From: Parapedobacter luteus
Lineage (GTDB): Bacteria > Bacteroidota > Bacteroidia > Sphingobacteriales > Sphingobacteriaceae
Length of the DNA: 64,000 nucleotides
Reading direction: 5' to 3'
Assembly (NCBI RefSeq): GCF_900168055.1
Contig: NZ_FUYS01000002.1
Span: forward strand, 124,888 to 188,887
The first letter of the stretch is position 1, and every line of letters starts with the position of its first letter. Below are positions 5,297 to 10,033 of the stretch, in pieces. The position numbers and the translations under genes are program-made. The notes under the pieces are model-generated. The model was given only the letters and a program-made list of their open reading frames with translations. It was not told where the DNA came from and searched no databases.

Positions 5297-5596
5297 TCAA
5301 TAGCTGCTAAGGTACTTCATGACGCTGTCAAAGAAGAGAACTTTTCCGGTATGTTGTTGGTTTGCAAAAGCTTGGATCGGGGCCAGATACTGCTGTTGAA
5401 ACAGTGCGATTTCTTCGTTGTGCGCCGCACGCAGTTGAAGGCAGTAAGTCGTCCCTTCATGTGGTGAGTCCAACAGCTCCAGCAAAGCGACCGATGCGGT
5501 TGCCTCCCGGTAGTGCTTCAGGTGTTCTTCAATGTGCTGCCGGACAATTTCCCGGATATCGTCTTCGGTGATGATGGTCACATTATACAGATACAT
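5297..5596 (-). CDS. DUF4286 family protein
   Basis: A 99-residue cytoplasmic protein starting MYLYNVTIITEDDI, which is the typical beginning of DUF4286; the reading frame extends further upstream but the family start is the ATG at 5596. It is predicted to fold like a small ferredoxin-type alpha/beta protein with no signal peptide or membrane helix. Function unknown. It is the first gene of a two-gene unit with rfbC (4-nt gap). A -7-like box (TATCTTCG on the minus strand, 5601-5608) ends 4 nt before the start codon. Confidence 0.8.
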   Translation of the reverse strand: MYLYNVTIITEDDIREIVRQHIEEHLKHYREATASVALLELLDSPHEGTTYCLQLRAAHNEEIALFQQQYLAPIQAFANQQHTGKVLFFDSVMKYLSSY

Positions 5597-5600
5597 GGGG

Positions 5601-5608
5601 CGAAGATA
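5601..5608 (-). promoter_or_regulatory. -7-like box TATCTTCG next to the DUF4286 start
   Basis: Read on the minus strand the box differs from TAnnTTTG at one base and ends 4 nt before the ATG, the same arrangement seen at 4016, 31821 and 49979. Confidence 0.4.
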
Positions 5609-5752
5609 AGCAATCCATCGAAATAGCCGCGACAAAATGACTTGGCGAGTTGCCGGCAATGATAGGTGAGACGTGTAAAATTAAGGTTGCATAATGAGCT
5701 TTTACGCTAAATTTTTCCACCTTTGAAAGAATGGAGAGGGAATACTGTTAAT

Positions 5753-7636
5753 ATGGTACGTCGTATAGTTTTATTATTCGGGGTGGTTTTCATGGCGTGT
5801 TTAACGCGCTGTGACAACCATAAGACACGTATTATACCTGTAGAGGATTTTTTTTCCGAACCTGAAAAGACCAATTTCAAGATATCCCCTAACGGCAAGT
5901 ACATCGCTTACCTGAGTACCTATGCAGGGCAGAAGAACATTTTCGTCTTGGAGGCAGGCAAAGAAAGCGGTGAGCAACGTATTACATCGGAAACAGAATT
6001 GGGCATCCAGTCATATTTTTGGGCCAATGACAGTGAGTTGATATTTACGAAGGATAGAAAAAATGATAGCCTGCAGGTGTTTGCCGTTAACCGGGCTACG
6101 CTGGCCGTGAGGCATCTTATGCCGGCTGCTTCGGTAAAGTTGCGTTGGATTCCGCCTTCGAAGGTGATAAACAACGGTTTCTTGATTTCGCTCAACGAGC
6201 GGGACTCGTCTGTATTTGATGTATACCGCCTCCGTACGGACGCCTGCAAAAAAGAATTGGTGGCCAAAAATCCTGGAAATATTATCAAATGGTTTGCTGA
6301 TTTAGACGGGCAGTTGCGGCTGGCACTGGCCAGCGACAGTGTAAAAGAGACCGTGTTATACCGGGATAGCGAAAAGGAGGCCTTTAGGCCGGTGATGAGC
6401 AACAGCTTCAGGAATTCGATCTTGCCGATTGGGTTTTCGGGCGAAAATAGGAGCCACGTGTTTGCCCTTTCCAACATCAACCGGGACAAACTGGCCTTGG
6501 TGGAAATCGACATGAACACGGGCAAGGAAGTGCGGATGATCTATAGCCATCCGGACGTGGATATGGACAACGGTGGCTATTCGAGCGACCGCGGTGAAAT
6601 GTCCTATGCGACCTACGCCACGTGGAAGCAACAACGGCATTTTCTGAACAAGCAGACCGAACGGGTTTACCGGGCAATCAGCGAGAAGCTGAATGGCTAT
6701 GAAGTGAGTATATTGGATCGGGATACCGCGCGCACGCGGTTTATCGTGCGTTCTTATACCGATAAAGATCCGGGCGCGACGTACTACTACGACATCACTG
6801 CAGATCAGTTGATAAAGTTGGCGGATAACAGCCCCGCCCTGAAGGATTGTTTGCTTGCGGAAATGACACCCATTACCTATCGATCACGCGATGGACGCCA
6901 AATACAGGGGTATTTGACCATGCCGGTAAAGTCAAAAGGCAAAAAGACCCCGGTGATCGTATACCCGCACAATGGGCCGAGTGGCAGGAACCAATGGGGG
7001 TTTAATCCCGAAGTGCAATTTTTTGCCAATCGTGGATTCGCCGTTTTTCAAATGAACTTCAGGGGATCGACCGGATATGGAAAGGAATTTTGGTCTGCCG
7101 GTTTTAAGGAATGGGGAGGGAAGATTCAGGATGACATTACCGATGGTGTACGCTGGTTGATTGAGGAAGGTGTCGTAGACTCGTCACGGATTGGTATTTA
7201 TGGCGCTGGTTTTGGAGGATATGCCGCACTGCATGGTGCCTGTTTCAACTCTGATCTCTACGCCTGTGCCGCCTCTTACTCCGGATTTGCCAACCTTTTT
7301 ACCTACCTCAAAGAGATCCCGCCGCATCTCAAGCCTTACTTACAAATGTATTATGAAATCATCGGTAATCCGGAATCTGAGCCTGATTTAATCAAGGCAA
7401 TGTCTCCGGTATTCCACACCGACAATATCAATATACCGGTATTCATCGCACAGGGAGGGAAGGATAGCTGGAGCACGGTAAACGAGACGAATCAATTTGT
7501 GCAGAAGCTAAAAAAGCGGAAGATCCCCATTACGTATATCCTGCGGGAAGAAGAAGGCCGGTATTTTCGTGATGAGGAAAACCGGATACTGTTTTACAGG
7601 GAATTGGGCGCATTTTTTGACAAATACCTGAAATGA
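5753..7636 (+). CDS. S9-family prolyl oligopeptidase-like protein lacking catalytic Ser and His
   Basis: A 627-residue exported protein: N-terminal hydrophobic segment ending in a cysteine (MACLTRC, a poor lipobox because of Arg at -1), a beta-propeller-like region with TolB-type repeats (about 40-380), and an S9 alpha/beta-hydrolase domain (about 380-627) with WGFNPEVQFFANRGFAVFQ and NFRGSTGYGKEFW. The nucleophile elbow reads GIYGAGFGGYAA where the family has GxSxGG: the Ser is Gly486 (GGT, 7208-7210). The Asp is kept in AQGGKD (Asp571). The C-terminal EGHGF motif reads EGRYF, so the His is Arg603. The protein should therefore not hydrolyse peptides. The stop overlaps the kinase start (ATGA), so it is probably made together with the sensor kinase. 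Start chosen at ATG 5753; a TTG 30 nt upstream is in frame but gives a poor signal peptide. Confidence 0.88.
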   Translation: MVRRIVLLFGVVFMACLTRCDNHKTRIIPVEDFFSEPEKTNFKISPNGKYIAYLSTYAGQKNIFVLEAGKESGEQRITSETELGIQSYFWANDSELIFTKDRKNDSLQVFAVNRATLAVRHLMPAASVKLRWIPPSKVINNGFLISLNERDSSVFDVYRLRTDACKKELVAKNPGNIIKWFADLDGQLRLALASDSVKETVLYRDSEKEAFRPVMSNSFRNSILPIGFSGENRSHVFALSNINRDKLALVEIDMNTGKEVRMIYSHPDVDMDNGGYSSDRGEMSYATYATWKQQRHFLNKQTERVYRAISEKLNGYEVSILDRDTARTRFIVRSYTDKDPGATYYYDITADQLIKLADNSPALKDCLLAEMTPITYRSRDGRQIQGYLTMPVKSKGKKTPVIVYPHNGPSGRNQWGFNPEVQFFANRGFAVFQMNFRGSTGYGKEFWSAGFKEWGGKIQDDITDGVRWLIEEGVVDSSRIGIYGAGFGGYAALHGACFNSDLYACAASYSGFANLFTYLKEIPPHLKPYLQMYYEIIGNPESEPDLIKAMSPVFHTDNINIPVFIAQGGKDSWSTVNETNQFVQKLKKRKIPITYILREEEGRYFRDEENRILFYRELGAFFDKYLK

Positions 7637-9300
7637 CGCACCGTCGCAATACCTATCGCGTAACCTATGTATTGGTAAGCGCTTTTATCGTTGTCGGCAT
7701 CGCTTCATTCGTGTTGGCTATCATCCTCGCCCGTGATTTGACCGTTACGTATGTCGAAAATGAATTTGCGTCCAGGAAAGTAGAGGTGCTGGAGTACAAC
7801 ATCGGCCCGTTCAATGATTTTTTCCAGAATCGGATTCCAGAGATATCATTCTATCAGGGTTATCTGGATTCGGCGGGCGTTGCTTCCTATGCCGATAGCG
7901 TATTGCAAACGTATCCGTTTGTCGAGCGCATCGTATTTTATGATGTAGCCTTGAGCAACAGCGAGTCTGTCGATTATGGGTTCTCGGCGAATAACCTGGT
8001 GGTATACCCAAAGGGTATCTACCAGTTCAGTCAGCCAAACCAAACCGGCCAGCCTTCATCAACAGCCAACCACAGCGGACAGTTGCCGCTGTCGTTGTCG
8101 GATGATTTCAATAACATGGCGGTTAAATTTGCGGCATTCATCGAACGGGTGGATACCACCAAAGCATTGCGGGACGAGGATATCTTCAAAGTGTTCTATG
8201 CCGTAACACCCGGTAAGATATCTTATATGAATATCCCCAGACGGGATGACCTAAAAGCCTATAAGGAGCTTATGTACGGGAAGCATTTGCATGATGCCGT
8301 CTATGAACAGGATATTTTTACGTATTTTATTAACCCCAATAAGCTGTCGTTAAACAATACCGTACCCGAATTATATCAGCATATACAAATACAACCGTTG
8401 GTTTATGAATCCATCGATACGGACCCGGATTTACTGACCACGGAAACCCCCTTGCCCGGGGCGTTGGCCGATTACAAAATCTACTTCAGCTCAAGCCGTT
8501 CGTTTTTACTGACCGAAATCAACCGGCGATTTCTGCCGGTATTGGCCGGTGTGGTTGCGATCTATCTCCTGCTGGCAATCATCGCATATCTGATTTATCG
8601 CAACTTATACGTAAACGAACGCATGTTTAAGTTGCAGTACGATTTTATCAATAACCTTACCCATGAATTTAAGACACCGGTAAGTGTTATCAAGATTGCG
8701 GGCAATAACATCAAGAGTGCGAAGCAACTATCGGACAAAGAACGCGTCCACTACGGGAAAATATTGGATGAGGAAGCGGATAAACTCAATAACCTGATGA
8801 ATACGTTGCTTTCCTTTACACAAATTGAAAATAAATCAATAAAAATAAAACGCGAAGAGGTTGATTTGCACGAATTTTGTGATAAAGTGTTGGCTGCCTC
8901 CAAAATTAAGTATGGCGATTTAATTATTCAGTGTCAAGTGGATGCAAACCGGGCCTTATACATTGATCCGGTATTGTTGGGCAGTATATTCCAAAACTTG
9001 ATAGATAACGCCTACAAGTATTCCAAGCCCGATAATAAGGTGCTGGATATCTATATTACACAGACGAAAAAACAAGTGACCATGCGGTTCGCGGACAAAG
9101 GCATCGGCATTGCCAAGAAAGAGTTGGCACACATTTTTAAAAAATTTTACCGTGTACAAAACCAGTACAACCAACAAGGCAGTGTGGGGCTGGGGCTTGC
9201 TTTCTGCAAAGAACTGGTTAATTTCATGGGCGGGGAGATCCGGGTGGAAAGTGAGCTGGATAAAGGCACGACGTTTATCATTGTTTTCCCGGTAGACTGA
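7633..9300 (+). CDS. Membrane sensor histidine kinase
   Basis: A 555-residue two-component sensor. Transmembrane helices at about 15-35 and 302-325 enclose an extracytoplasmic domain of about 265 residues with no family I recognise. There is no HAMP domain; a short linker leads to HisKA, with NNLTHEFKTPVSVIK and phospho-acceptor His344, then the HATPase domain with an N box (NLIDNAYKYS), G1 (ADKGIGI), F (FKKFYR) and G2 (GLGLAF). The start codon overlaps the stop of the inactive S9-like protein by ATGA, and the response regulator follows 40 nt downstream, so the three genes form one signalling operon. Confidence 0.93.
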   Translation: MTHRRNTYRVTYVLVSAFIVVGIASFVLAIILARDLTVTYVENEFASRKVEVLEYNIGPFNDFFQNRIPEISFYQGYLDSAGVASYADSVLQTYPFVERIVFYDVALSNSESVDYGFSANNLVVYPKGIYQFSQPNQTGQPSSTANHSGQLPLSLSDDFNNMAVKFAAFIERVDTTKALRDEDIFKVFYAVTPGKISYMNIPRRDDLKAYKELMYGKHLHDAVYEQDIFTYFINPNKLSLNNTVPELYQHIQIQPLVYESIDTDPDLLTTETPLPGALADYKIYFSSSRSFLLTEINRRFLPVLAGVVAIYLLLAIIAYLIYRNLYVNERMFKLQYDFINNLTHEFKTPVSVIKIAGNNIKSAKQLSDKERVHYGKILDEEADKLNNLMNTLLSFTQIENKSIKIKREEVDLHEFCDKVLAASKIKYGDLIIQCQVDANRALYIDPVLLGSIFQNLIDNAYKYSKPDNKVLDIYITQTKKQVTMRFADKGIGIAKKELAHIFKKFYRVQNQYNQQGSVGLGLAFCKELVNFMGGEIRVESELDKGTTFIIVFPVD

Positions 9301-9340
9301 CAAGTGGATTATAAATATACCCATAAATCGTATTCAAGAT

Positions 9341-10033
9341 ATGCAAAAAAACATCAAAATAGCCGTCATTGAAGACGACGAGAATTTACGTTTCTTAGTT
9401 GCCCACCGCCTTGAATCGGAAAATTACCAGGTTATACAGACTGGCAATGGTGATGATGCAGAAAAGCTGATATTGGAGCAAAAGCCCGATATTGTCTTAT
9501 TGGATTGGATGCTGCCCGGGAAGCAGGGCTCGGATATCTGTGCCAGCCTGAGGAGTGAGGGGTTTGCCAACTTGATCATCATGATGACGGCAAAATCCCA
9601 AGATGTCGATAAAATTGATGCTTACAGCTTTGGTGTGTCGGATTACATCACCAAGCCTTTCAGCATGGACGTCCTGGTGGCCATGATAGAAAACAAGGTC
9701 AAGTACTTTGTCAATAGCCAAAACGCGGACTTATATACATTCGGCGATACCGAGCATCACCCCAACGTCCATTCGCTGGTGCGTAATGGTAAGAAAATTG
9801 AGCTGACGATTTTGGAAAACCGTATCCTGCTATATTTCCTTCAAAACGTGGGGCGGGTCATCAGTCGCGACGAATTGATGCAGGTGGTCTGGGGCTACAG
9901 CTCCAATGTAAACACCCGGACATTGGATATGCATATCGTGCGCTTGCGTAAAAAAATTGAACTCAACGCTGATAAGCCTGCATATTTGCAGACCGTGAGG
10001 GGGATGGGGTATAAGTTTGTGGATAATCCTTGA
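9341..10033 (+). CDS. OmpR/PhoB-family response regulator
   Basis: A 230-residue regulator: receiver domain 5-120 with acidic pair IEDDEN, phospho-acceptor Asp55 in VLLDWMLPG and the conserved Lys in ITKPFS, followed by a winged-helix DNA-binding domain (about 130-228) with TRTLDMHIVRLRKKIE and VRGMGYKF. It is the cognate partner of the upstream kinase by position. Its targets are unknown. After its stop there is only a weak hairpin, and the greA promoter begins 17 nt further. Confidence 0.95.
   Translation: MQKNIKIAVIEDDENLRFLVAHRLESENYQVIQTGNGDDAEKLILEQKPDIVLLDWMLPGKQGSDICASLRSEGFANLIIMMTAKSQDVDKIDAYSFGVSDYITKPFSMDVLVAMIENKVKYFVNSQNADLYTFGDTEHHPNVHSLVRNGKKIELTILENRILLYFLQNVGRVISRDELMQVVWGYSSNVNTRTLDMHIVRLRKKIELNADKPAYLQTVRGMGYKFVDNP

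Follow-up and report, generated by a model that had tools for sequence, protein, structure and literature searches.

The genome of Parapedobacter luteus carries, within the 64,000-nucleotide (nt) stretch that we analysed as a whole (hereafter, the window; from a 4.83-Mb draft assembly of 28 contigs), a gene for a predicted lipoprotein of the S9 peptidase family that lacks the catalytic serine and histidine and stands directly upstream of the genes for a sensor histidine kinase and an OmpR/PhoB-type response regulator. Here we show that this operon is conserved across the surrounding bacterial family, Sphingobacteriaceae, that the nucleophilic serine has been lost within it repeatedly, that the S9 protein remains under constraint and that an operon-specific element lies upstream. 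On balance, we favour a history that begins with an active peptidase: recruited as an accessory lipoprotein to a two-component system specific to this family, the ancestral protein could then dispense with catalysis.

The S9 gene is one intact reading frame (5753–7636), and the first-pass annotation of this DNA was right in finding neither stops nor frameshifts in it. Its product joins an N-terminal propeller to a C-terminal hydrolase domain that matches Peptidase_S9 in Pfam (137.6 bits against a cut-off of 22.6), and this composition, together with an AlphaFold2 model (mean predicted local distance difference test score, pLDDT, of 93.1) and Foldseek comparison, places it in the S9 prolyl oligopeptidase fold family. 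The best solved match by sequence, over the whole length, is the acylaminoacyl peptidase 5l8s (287.7 bits), which is also the best Foldseek match to the model (template modelling (TM) scores of 0.79 and 0.82); structure entries for DPP4 score below 100 bits, and these scores of solved relatives speak against membership of subfamily S9B by descent. Matches to the NCBIfam models for Dpp5 (NF053518, 97.7 bits) and for Atxe2-family lasso peptide isopeptidases (NF033523, 72.6 bits) fall far under the curated cut-offs of 900 and 400, respectively. The signal-like N terminus with its invariant cysteine suggests lipidation at Cys20.

In the hydrolase domain, the catalytic aspartate is kept as Asp571, the serine of the GxSxGG motif is Gly486 and the catalytic histidine is Arg603, residues and coordinates that agree with those first proposed. 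We read these columns as the triad because 58 of 59 relatives without this kinase alongside show Ser-Asp-His (S-D-H) there and the remaining one S-D-L. These unlinked relatives, from many phyla by record title, were drawn from the best 80 of 587 confirmed places; 56 of them show at least 600 nt downstream and 51 at least 1,700 nt, and linkage could be missed in the 8 that show less than 1,700 nt (3 of them less than 600). The S-D-L protein, from Parachitinimonas caeni (L231), keeps Ser and Asp and has leucine at the histidine position. One relative, in a Bacteroidetes metagenome-assembled genome (L196, 8849–11606), is followed on its own strand by a kinase (29%) and a regulator (28%) that are both unrelated.

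The operon spans nearly the whole family. All nine genomes of the genus of the window hold an S9 ortholog (relatives 74–91% identical), and 290 of 301 family genomes, in 22 of 25 genera, have a match at E ≤ 1e-60, nearly all of the matches listed spanning the query. Loci with flanks were fetched for 80 of these 290 genomes, picked to span all 22 genera. The kinase lies downstream on the same strand in each of the resulting 81 loci (80 fetched plus the window), within 200 nt of the S9 gene except where the latter is broken (L162), and the regulator follows in 80; the exception, L158, ends at a contig end where even the kinase is only partial. The order S9–kinase–regulator, which the first-pass annotation had put forward for comparison in related genomes, is thus a fixed arrangement. 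The stop codon of the S9 gene and the start codon of the kinase (ATG at 7633) share ATGA and overlap by 4 nt. That the two genes overlap had also been read correctly; they do so in 9 of 80 loci, 7 of them in the genus of the window, and the feature is mainly one of that genus; the median gap over the 80 loci is 6 nt (with kinase starts chosen by alignment). In an order sample of 201 genomes, all of one family, 200 match the kinase itself at E ≤ 1e-100, and the same operon occurs in records named Olivibacter, Sphingobacterium, Pedobacter, Mucilaginibacter, Arcticibacter and Pelobium. A record named Flavobacteriaceae bacterium PS02338 (L229) also carries the whole operon and pairs with a locus of the Pedobacter-group genus g13 (support of 99 on both trees); it is either a misnamed record or a transfer.

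Loss of the nucleophile within this arrangement is widespread. The linked set comprises 97 proteins (the window, 79 family loci and 17 named loci, leaving out the broken S9 gene of L162 and 4 of 21 named loci as duplicates). Serine is absent from 75 of these and present in 22, histidine is present in 28, both are present in 21 and aspartate is present in 96. All nine members of the genus of the window, the window included, show Gly-Asp-Arg (G-D-R) with the kinase downstream; close relatives with intact Ser and His and no linked kinase, which would have spoken against the first proposal, did not appear. The same uniformity rules out a sequencing error or a recent decay in a single strain as the source of G-D-R. 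Serine is lost in all readable members of ten genera and kept in eight, several of them represented by a single member, and four genera (g13, g17, g18 and g21) are mixed. The ortholog in genome G120 (L159) has G-N-N at the triad columns, with a glycine-rich insertion before the histidine column.

Parsimony requires at least ten changes between Ser and non-Ser, both on the S9 tree (built with the triad columns omitted) and on a tree of kinase plus regulator, and at least nine and eight, respectively, at the histidine. Sixteen of the 59 unlinked relatives served as outgroup; both trees are quick and have several weakly supported deep branches, and parsimony by itself cannot separate loss of serine from regain. 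The sole linked protein with Ser but without His (L144) is placed inside a Ser-lost group, and its serine may be a regain. Serine seems to have been lost before histidine, as proteins that lack Ser and keep His (7 of 97) outnumber the reverse (1 of 97). In the fetched family loci, all 20 serine codons are AGC or AGT, which a single step turns into codons for Gly, Arg or Asn.

In the history that we favour, an active S9 peptidase lipoprotein would have settled in front of the genes for a histidine kinase and an OmpR/PhoB-type regulator in an ancestor of the family and been taken up, as an accessory subunit, into the two-component system that these form. With its anchor in the envelope, it would present a state (ligand-bound or not, folded, localised) to the large sensor domain of the kinase, with which it may be in contact and for which it may bind a ligand. 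Such signalling would need the fold and not cutting, which would explain why the serine disappeared in about ten separate events, most often replaced by Gly; the histidine would then have drifted after loss of the serine, with selection still acting on the remainder of the protein.

That the protein is still an enzyme, using another nucleophile or catalysing another reaction, we regard as most improbable. Asp571 and the glycines of the nucleophile elbow do remain and the triad is complete in 21 of the 97 linked proteins, but at the histidine position 13 different residues, or a gap, stand in for it, and no single substitute is shared across the family. It is also conceivable, although unlikely, that the lineages divide by function, those keeping Ser using a signal-degrading peptidase to end signalling, and the protein of those without it having become a receptor for that same ligand or a sink for it. 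The genera mixed for Ser would suit such a switch, and the contrast between fly and mammalian DPP10 offers a precedent (PMC4873792); against it, sites fixed in the 59 unlinked proteins, such as residues 104, 134 and 410, are in part already relaxed in the 21 linked proteins that keep the Ser, which may therefore be changed enzymes too.

Constraint on the S9 protein is comparable to that on its partners. Between the window and its nearest congener, the ratio of nonsynonymous to synonymous substitution (dN/dS) is 0.028 for S9, compared with 0.023 in the kinase and 0.038 in the regulator (synonymous divergence, dS, of 1.8–2.3), the S9 value resting on one usable pair of eight, the other seven being saturated. 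Divergence of the propeller relative to the kinase is the same whether pairs lack Ser (1.43) or are intact (1.45), and that of the hydrolase domain is higher in the Ser-lost pairs (0.98) than in the intact ones (0.72), with values of 1.48 and 0.89 for the two domains in mixed pairs; these ratios come from pairs of moderate divergence (225 Ser-lost and 36 intact, not independent; L156, L159, L161 and L164 left out). Forty-two columns are invariant across 38 rows of the S9 alignment, 26 of which lack the Ser. By these comparisons the fold is preserved and relaxation falls mainly on the domain that was once catalytic, and the protein has the profile of an inactive S9 subunit, its nucleophile replaced and its fold under selection, as the dN/dS values, the AlphaFold2 model and the triad counts indicate.

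Several findings weigh against this history, above all against an obligate role for the S9 protein. Five genomes of a reduced genus (g10) have a full kinase and regulator with no S9 gene in the fetched stretch (about 650 nt upstream being covered in L304), and the element is missing upstream of the kinase in all five as well. At one of these loci (L303, 3276–7589) a gene that we take to be rmlC-like and a small reading frame are still neighbours, and a divergent protein, presumably TPR-like, occupies the expected place of S9. The S9 gene is split between two frames, with the kinase in one, in G186, G141 (both single contigs) and G112 (loci L161, L162 and L156), although one TAA is flagged in the kinase frame of G141, its place not located. 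A full triad persists in the 21 linked proteins noted above, all from other genera or named records, and catalysis may matter in some lineages that keep the Ser. Nor is co-divergence specific: over 92 rows (L156, L158, L159, L161 and L164 left out), the partial correlation of the propeller is 0.448 with the sensor domain and 0.492 with the regulator. Near-invariant sites have changed in g10 at 7 of 25 sensor positions and 7 of 98 in the kinase core, yet sensor sites have also changed in g3, which has S9 (6 of 28), and in g24 (5 of 26), all sensor counts omitting L158.

Six of the 11 family genomes without an S9 match belong to g10, the sixth member there (G082, 83% complete) having no full kinase. 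Among the others, G071 (100% complete) has neither S9 nor a full kinase, in G015, G016 and G049 (71–76% complete) neither is seen, and G261 has a piece of each gene, the kinase piece lying where a contig stops. The S9 protein is thus common and constrained but not indispensable. Of the first proposal, the conserved role free of catalysis is supported, by repeated Ser loss in a conserved frame and sequence, as is the gene order, whereas peptide binding and contact with the extracytoplasmic domain of the kinase are putative. The five g10 genomes speak against strict dependence on S9.

These same losses could be taken as neutral decay, in which the gene, once catalysis was of no further use, drifts towards loss with no positive role: Ser and His have gone repeatedly, S9 is missing from g10 and split in three genomes, and the hydrolase domain evolves faster in Ser-lost pairs. 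We consider this highly unlikely, because S9 is matched in all but 11 family genomes, nearly always over its length among the matches listed, its dN/dS near 0.03 (in the one usable pair) is like that of the kinase, the propeller is not accelerated and the invariant columns run through proteins without the Ser.

A conserved block is visible in the DNA upstream of S9 in eight members of the genus. Its 21-mer, TGTAAAATTAAGGTTGCATAA, is the same in eight of nine genus genomes, the ninth differing at a single base, and within the 64-kb window it has a single match at up to three mismatches. In the general form GTA-N8-GT[TG][AG]C, the element lies upstream of S9 in 89 of the 97 linked loci. It falls within 250 nt of the gene in 88 of 94 (omitting L156, L161 and L164), against a mean of 0.97 and a maximum of 3 in shuffles, a count that is not blind, the pattern having been derived from the same sequences; other spacers of 4–15 nt give at most 5 of 94. 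Across 2.57 million strand-bases of all linked loci the pattern has 168 matches, about 79 of them elsewhere than upstream of S9. It is absent upstream of the unlinked S9 genes (0 of 57, two of the 59 being dropped for short upstream DNA) and from the 250 nt before the kinase in all five g10 loci. Zero-mismatch copies lie at this operon in nine of nine cases in the genus of the window, 13 of 14 in 13 genomes of other genera and seven of seven in a third set of ten genomes, in which the operon element has one mismatch in G150, two in G035 and no match in G014. At up to one mismatch the 13 genomes give 35 sites, compared with 21 when the pattern is reversed as a control; once the 14 exact sites are set aside, sites with one mismatch do not outnumber those of the control, so a lone site of this kind means nothing. 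The two GT steps of the element, 11 bp apart, resemble the tandem sites of OmpR/PhoB-type regulators, and the regulator is a putative ligand of the element, which in the form GTA-N10-TAC admits a second reading, as an inverted repeat. An assignment of the element to the divergent reading frame at 5297–5659 was rejected, as it is kept in 45 of 49 loci without that frame adjoining (76 loci tabulated).

In g13 the element probably has a second target, a case that rests on repeated position. Pattern hits lie upstream of genes for outer-membrane β-barrel proteins (PF14905) twice each in G144 and G065 and once in G074 (L348, 2558–2573 and 5617–5632; L349, 2653–2668 and 5685–5700; L350, 3363–3378), near a gene that we take to be gcvH-like. 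An independent protein search found the element in four of four further g13 loci (G083 twice, G020 and G099), 91–132 nt before the start of the match; G083 also has a pattern hit, and element-like sites altogether precede β-barrel genes in six g13 genomes, by roughly 60–130 nt. The same search in other genera found it in 2 of 26 loci (L371, at 103 nt; L367, at 293 nt) and in none of the other 24, and there the orthology of the matches is doubtful, identity being only 29–39%; a second target is not shown for the family as a whole.

These sites bear on a reading in which S9 is an output of the two-component system, a co-transcribed lipoprotein for envelope or peptide handling whose binding or scaffold role is unrelated to sensing; this and the division of lineages by function are the chief rivals of the favoured history. 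Operon linkage and the upstream element suit co-regulation as well as they suit sensing, the β-barrel sites could mean that the element marks envelope outputs, and g10 has kept its kinase and regulator although S9 is missing there. We nevertheless think it rather unlikely: S9 adjoins the kinase at every one of the 81 loci, the median gap being 6 nt, outputs would often be expected to move away from their regulators across such distances, and the complete genome G071 lacks both genes together. A more specific form of the accessory-subunit history, offered tentatively as a lesser possibility, would make the pseudopeptidase a ligand-binding co-receptor of the kinase that captures envelope peptides and leaves them uncut, with some ten conversions of a signal-destroying enzyme into a receptor and with autofeedback by the regulator through an operator phased at 11 bp.

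The kinase and regulator have the domains expected of a two-component system, with HisKA and HATPase_c in the former and receiver and DNA-binding domains in the latter (Table 1); we take His344 to be the phosphoacceptor from what is known of the HisKA family. The extracytoplasmic sensor region has no Pfam match, and its profile found none of the solved chains up to E = 1; of the 50 Foldseek matches listed for the modelled kinase, most are kinase cores or have low TM scores. In a class sample of 295 genomes (up to eight first-look candidates scored per genome), the sensor region is present in all 10 genomes of the family and in none of the other 285 (E ≤ 0.001).

Table 1 Features of the S9–kinase–regulator operon in the window (window coordinates)
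Feature	Position	Strand	Basis
cis element TGTAAAATTAAGGTTGCATAA, core GTA-N8-GTTGC at 5675–5690	5674–5694	+	
S9-family pseudopeptidase, predicted lipoprotein, 627 residues	5753–7636	+	ATG at 5753, stop at 7636; Pfam; AlphaFold2
Predicted signal peptide through Cys20	5753–5812	+	Cys20 in all 38 rows of alignment A1
Nucleophile position, Gly486 (GGT)	7208–7210	+	Sequence, alignment
Triad Asp571 (GAT), retained	7463–7465	+	Asp in 96 of 97 linked proteins
Triad histidine position, Arg603 (CGG)	7559–7561	+	Sequence, alignment
Sensor histidine kinase, 555 residues	7633–9300	+	HisKA and HATPase_c (Pfam)
Extracytoplasmic sensor region, residues 35–296 (limits set by us)	7735–8520	+	
His344 of the HisKA domain, probable phosphoacceptor	8662–8664	+	Invariant in alignment A2
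OmpR/PhoB-type response regulator, 230 residues	9341–10033	+	Response_reg and Trans_reg_C (Pfam)

Two known systems come closest. In the QseE–QseG–QseF system of enterobacteria, one operon encodes a lipoprotein, a kinase with a large periplasmic domain and a regulator, and QseG binds and activates QseE and is required for its activity (PMC6075780, PMC12691602). An accessory role of this kind is the one that we favour for the S9 protein. The operon described here shares with it a lipoprotein-like signal with a cysteine and a conserved linkage to kinase and regulator; it differs in that the accessory protein is an S9 propeller/hydrolase encoded first, with a putative contact to the kinase. The second is the pair DPP6/DPP10, inactive S9B proteins of Kv4 channels, which likewise combine an S9 fold and a replaced Ser with a signalling partner in the membrane (putative in our case); DPP10 has Gly for the catalytic Ser and modulates a channel (PMC4350108). 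Those proteins are animal, carry a membrane helix and serve a channel, whereas ours is a predicted bacterial lipoprotein in a kinase operon, in which the Ser has changed some ten separate times. Fly DPP10 acts as a peptidase and as a channel subunit alike (PMC4873792), in keeping with the succession proposed here, in which the partner role came first and catalysis was lost later. The closest solved relative, 5l8s, is deposited as a peptidase; the protein of the window has neither the Ser nor the His and is encoded in a kinase operon. S9 proteins without activity and lipoproteins that assist kinases are each known; our search of the open-access literature found neither their combination in one fixed operon, with its ten or so separate changes, nor a paper on this operon.

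Collectively, these observations point to a two-component system that nearly all members of a large bacterial family share, and they offer candidates for its accessory subunit and its operator. Within this one fixed operon lie about ten parallel changes from enzyme to pseudoenzyme, with intact members as controls, a natural series in which one can test directly whether the signalling role came before catalysis was lost.

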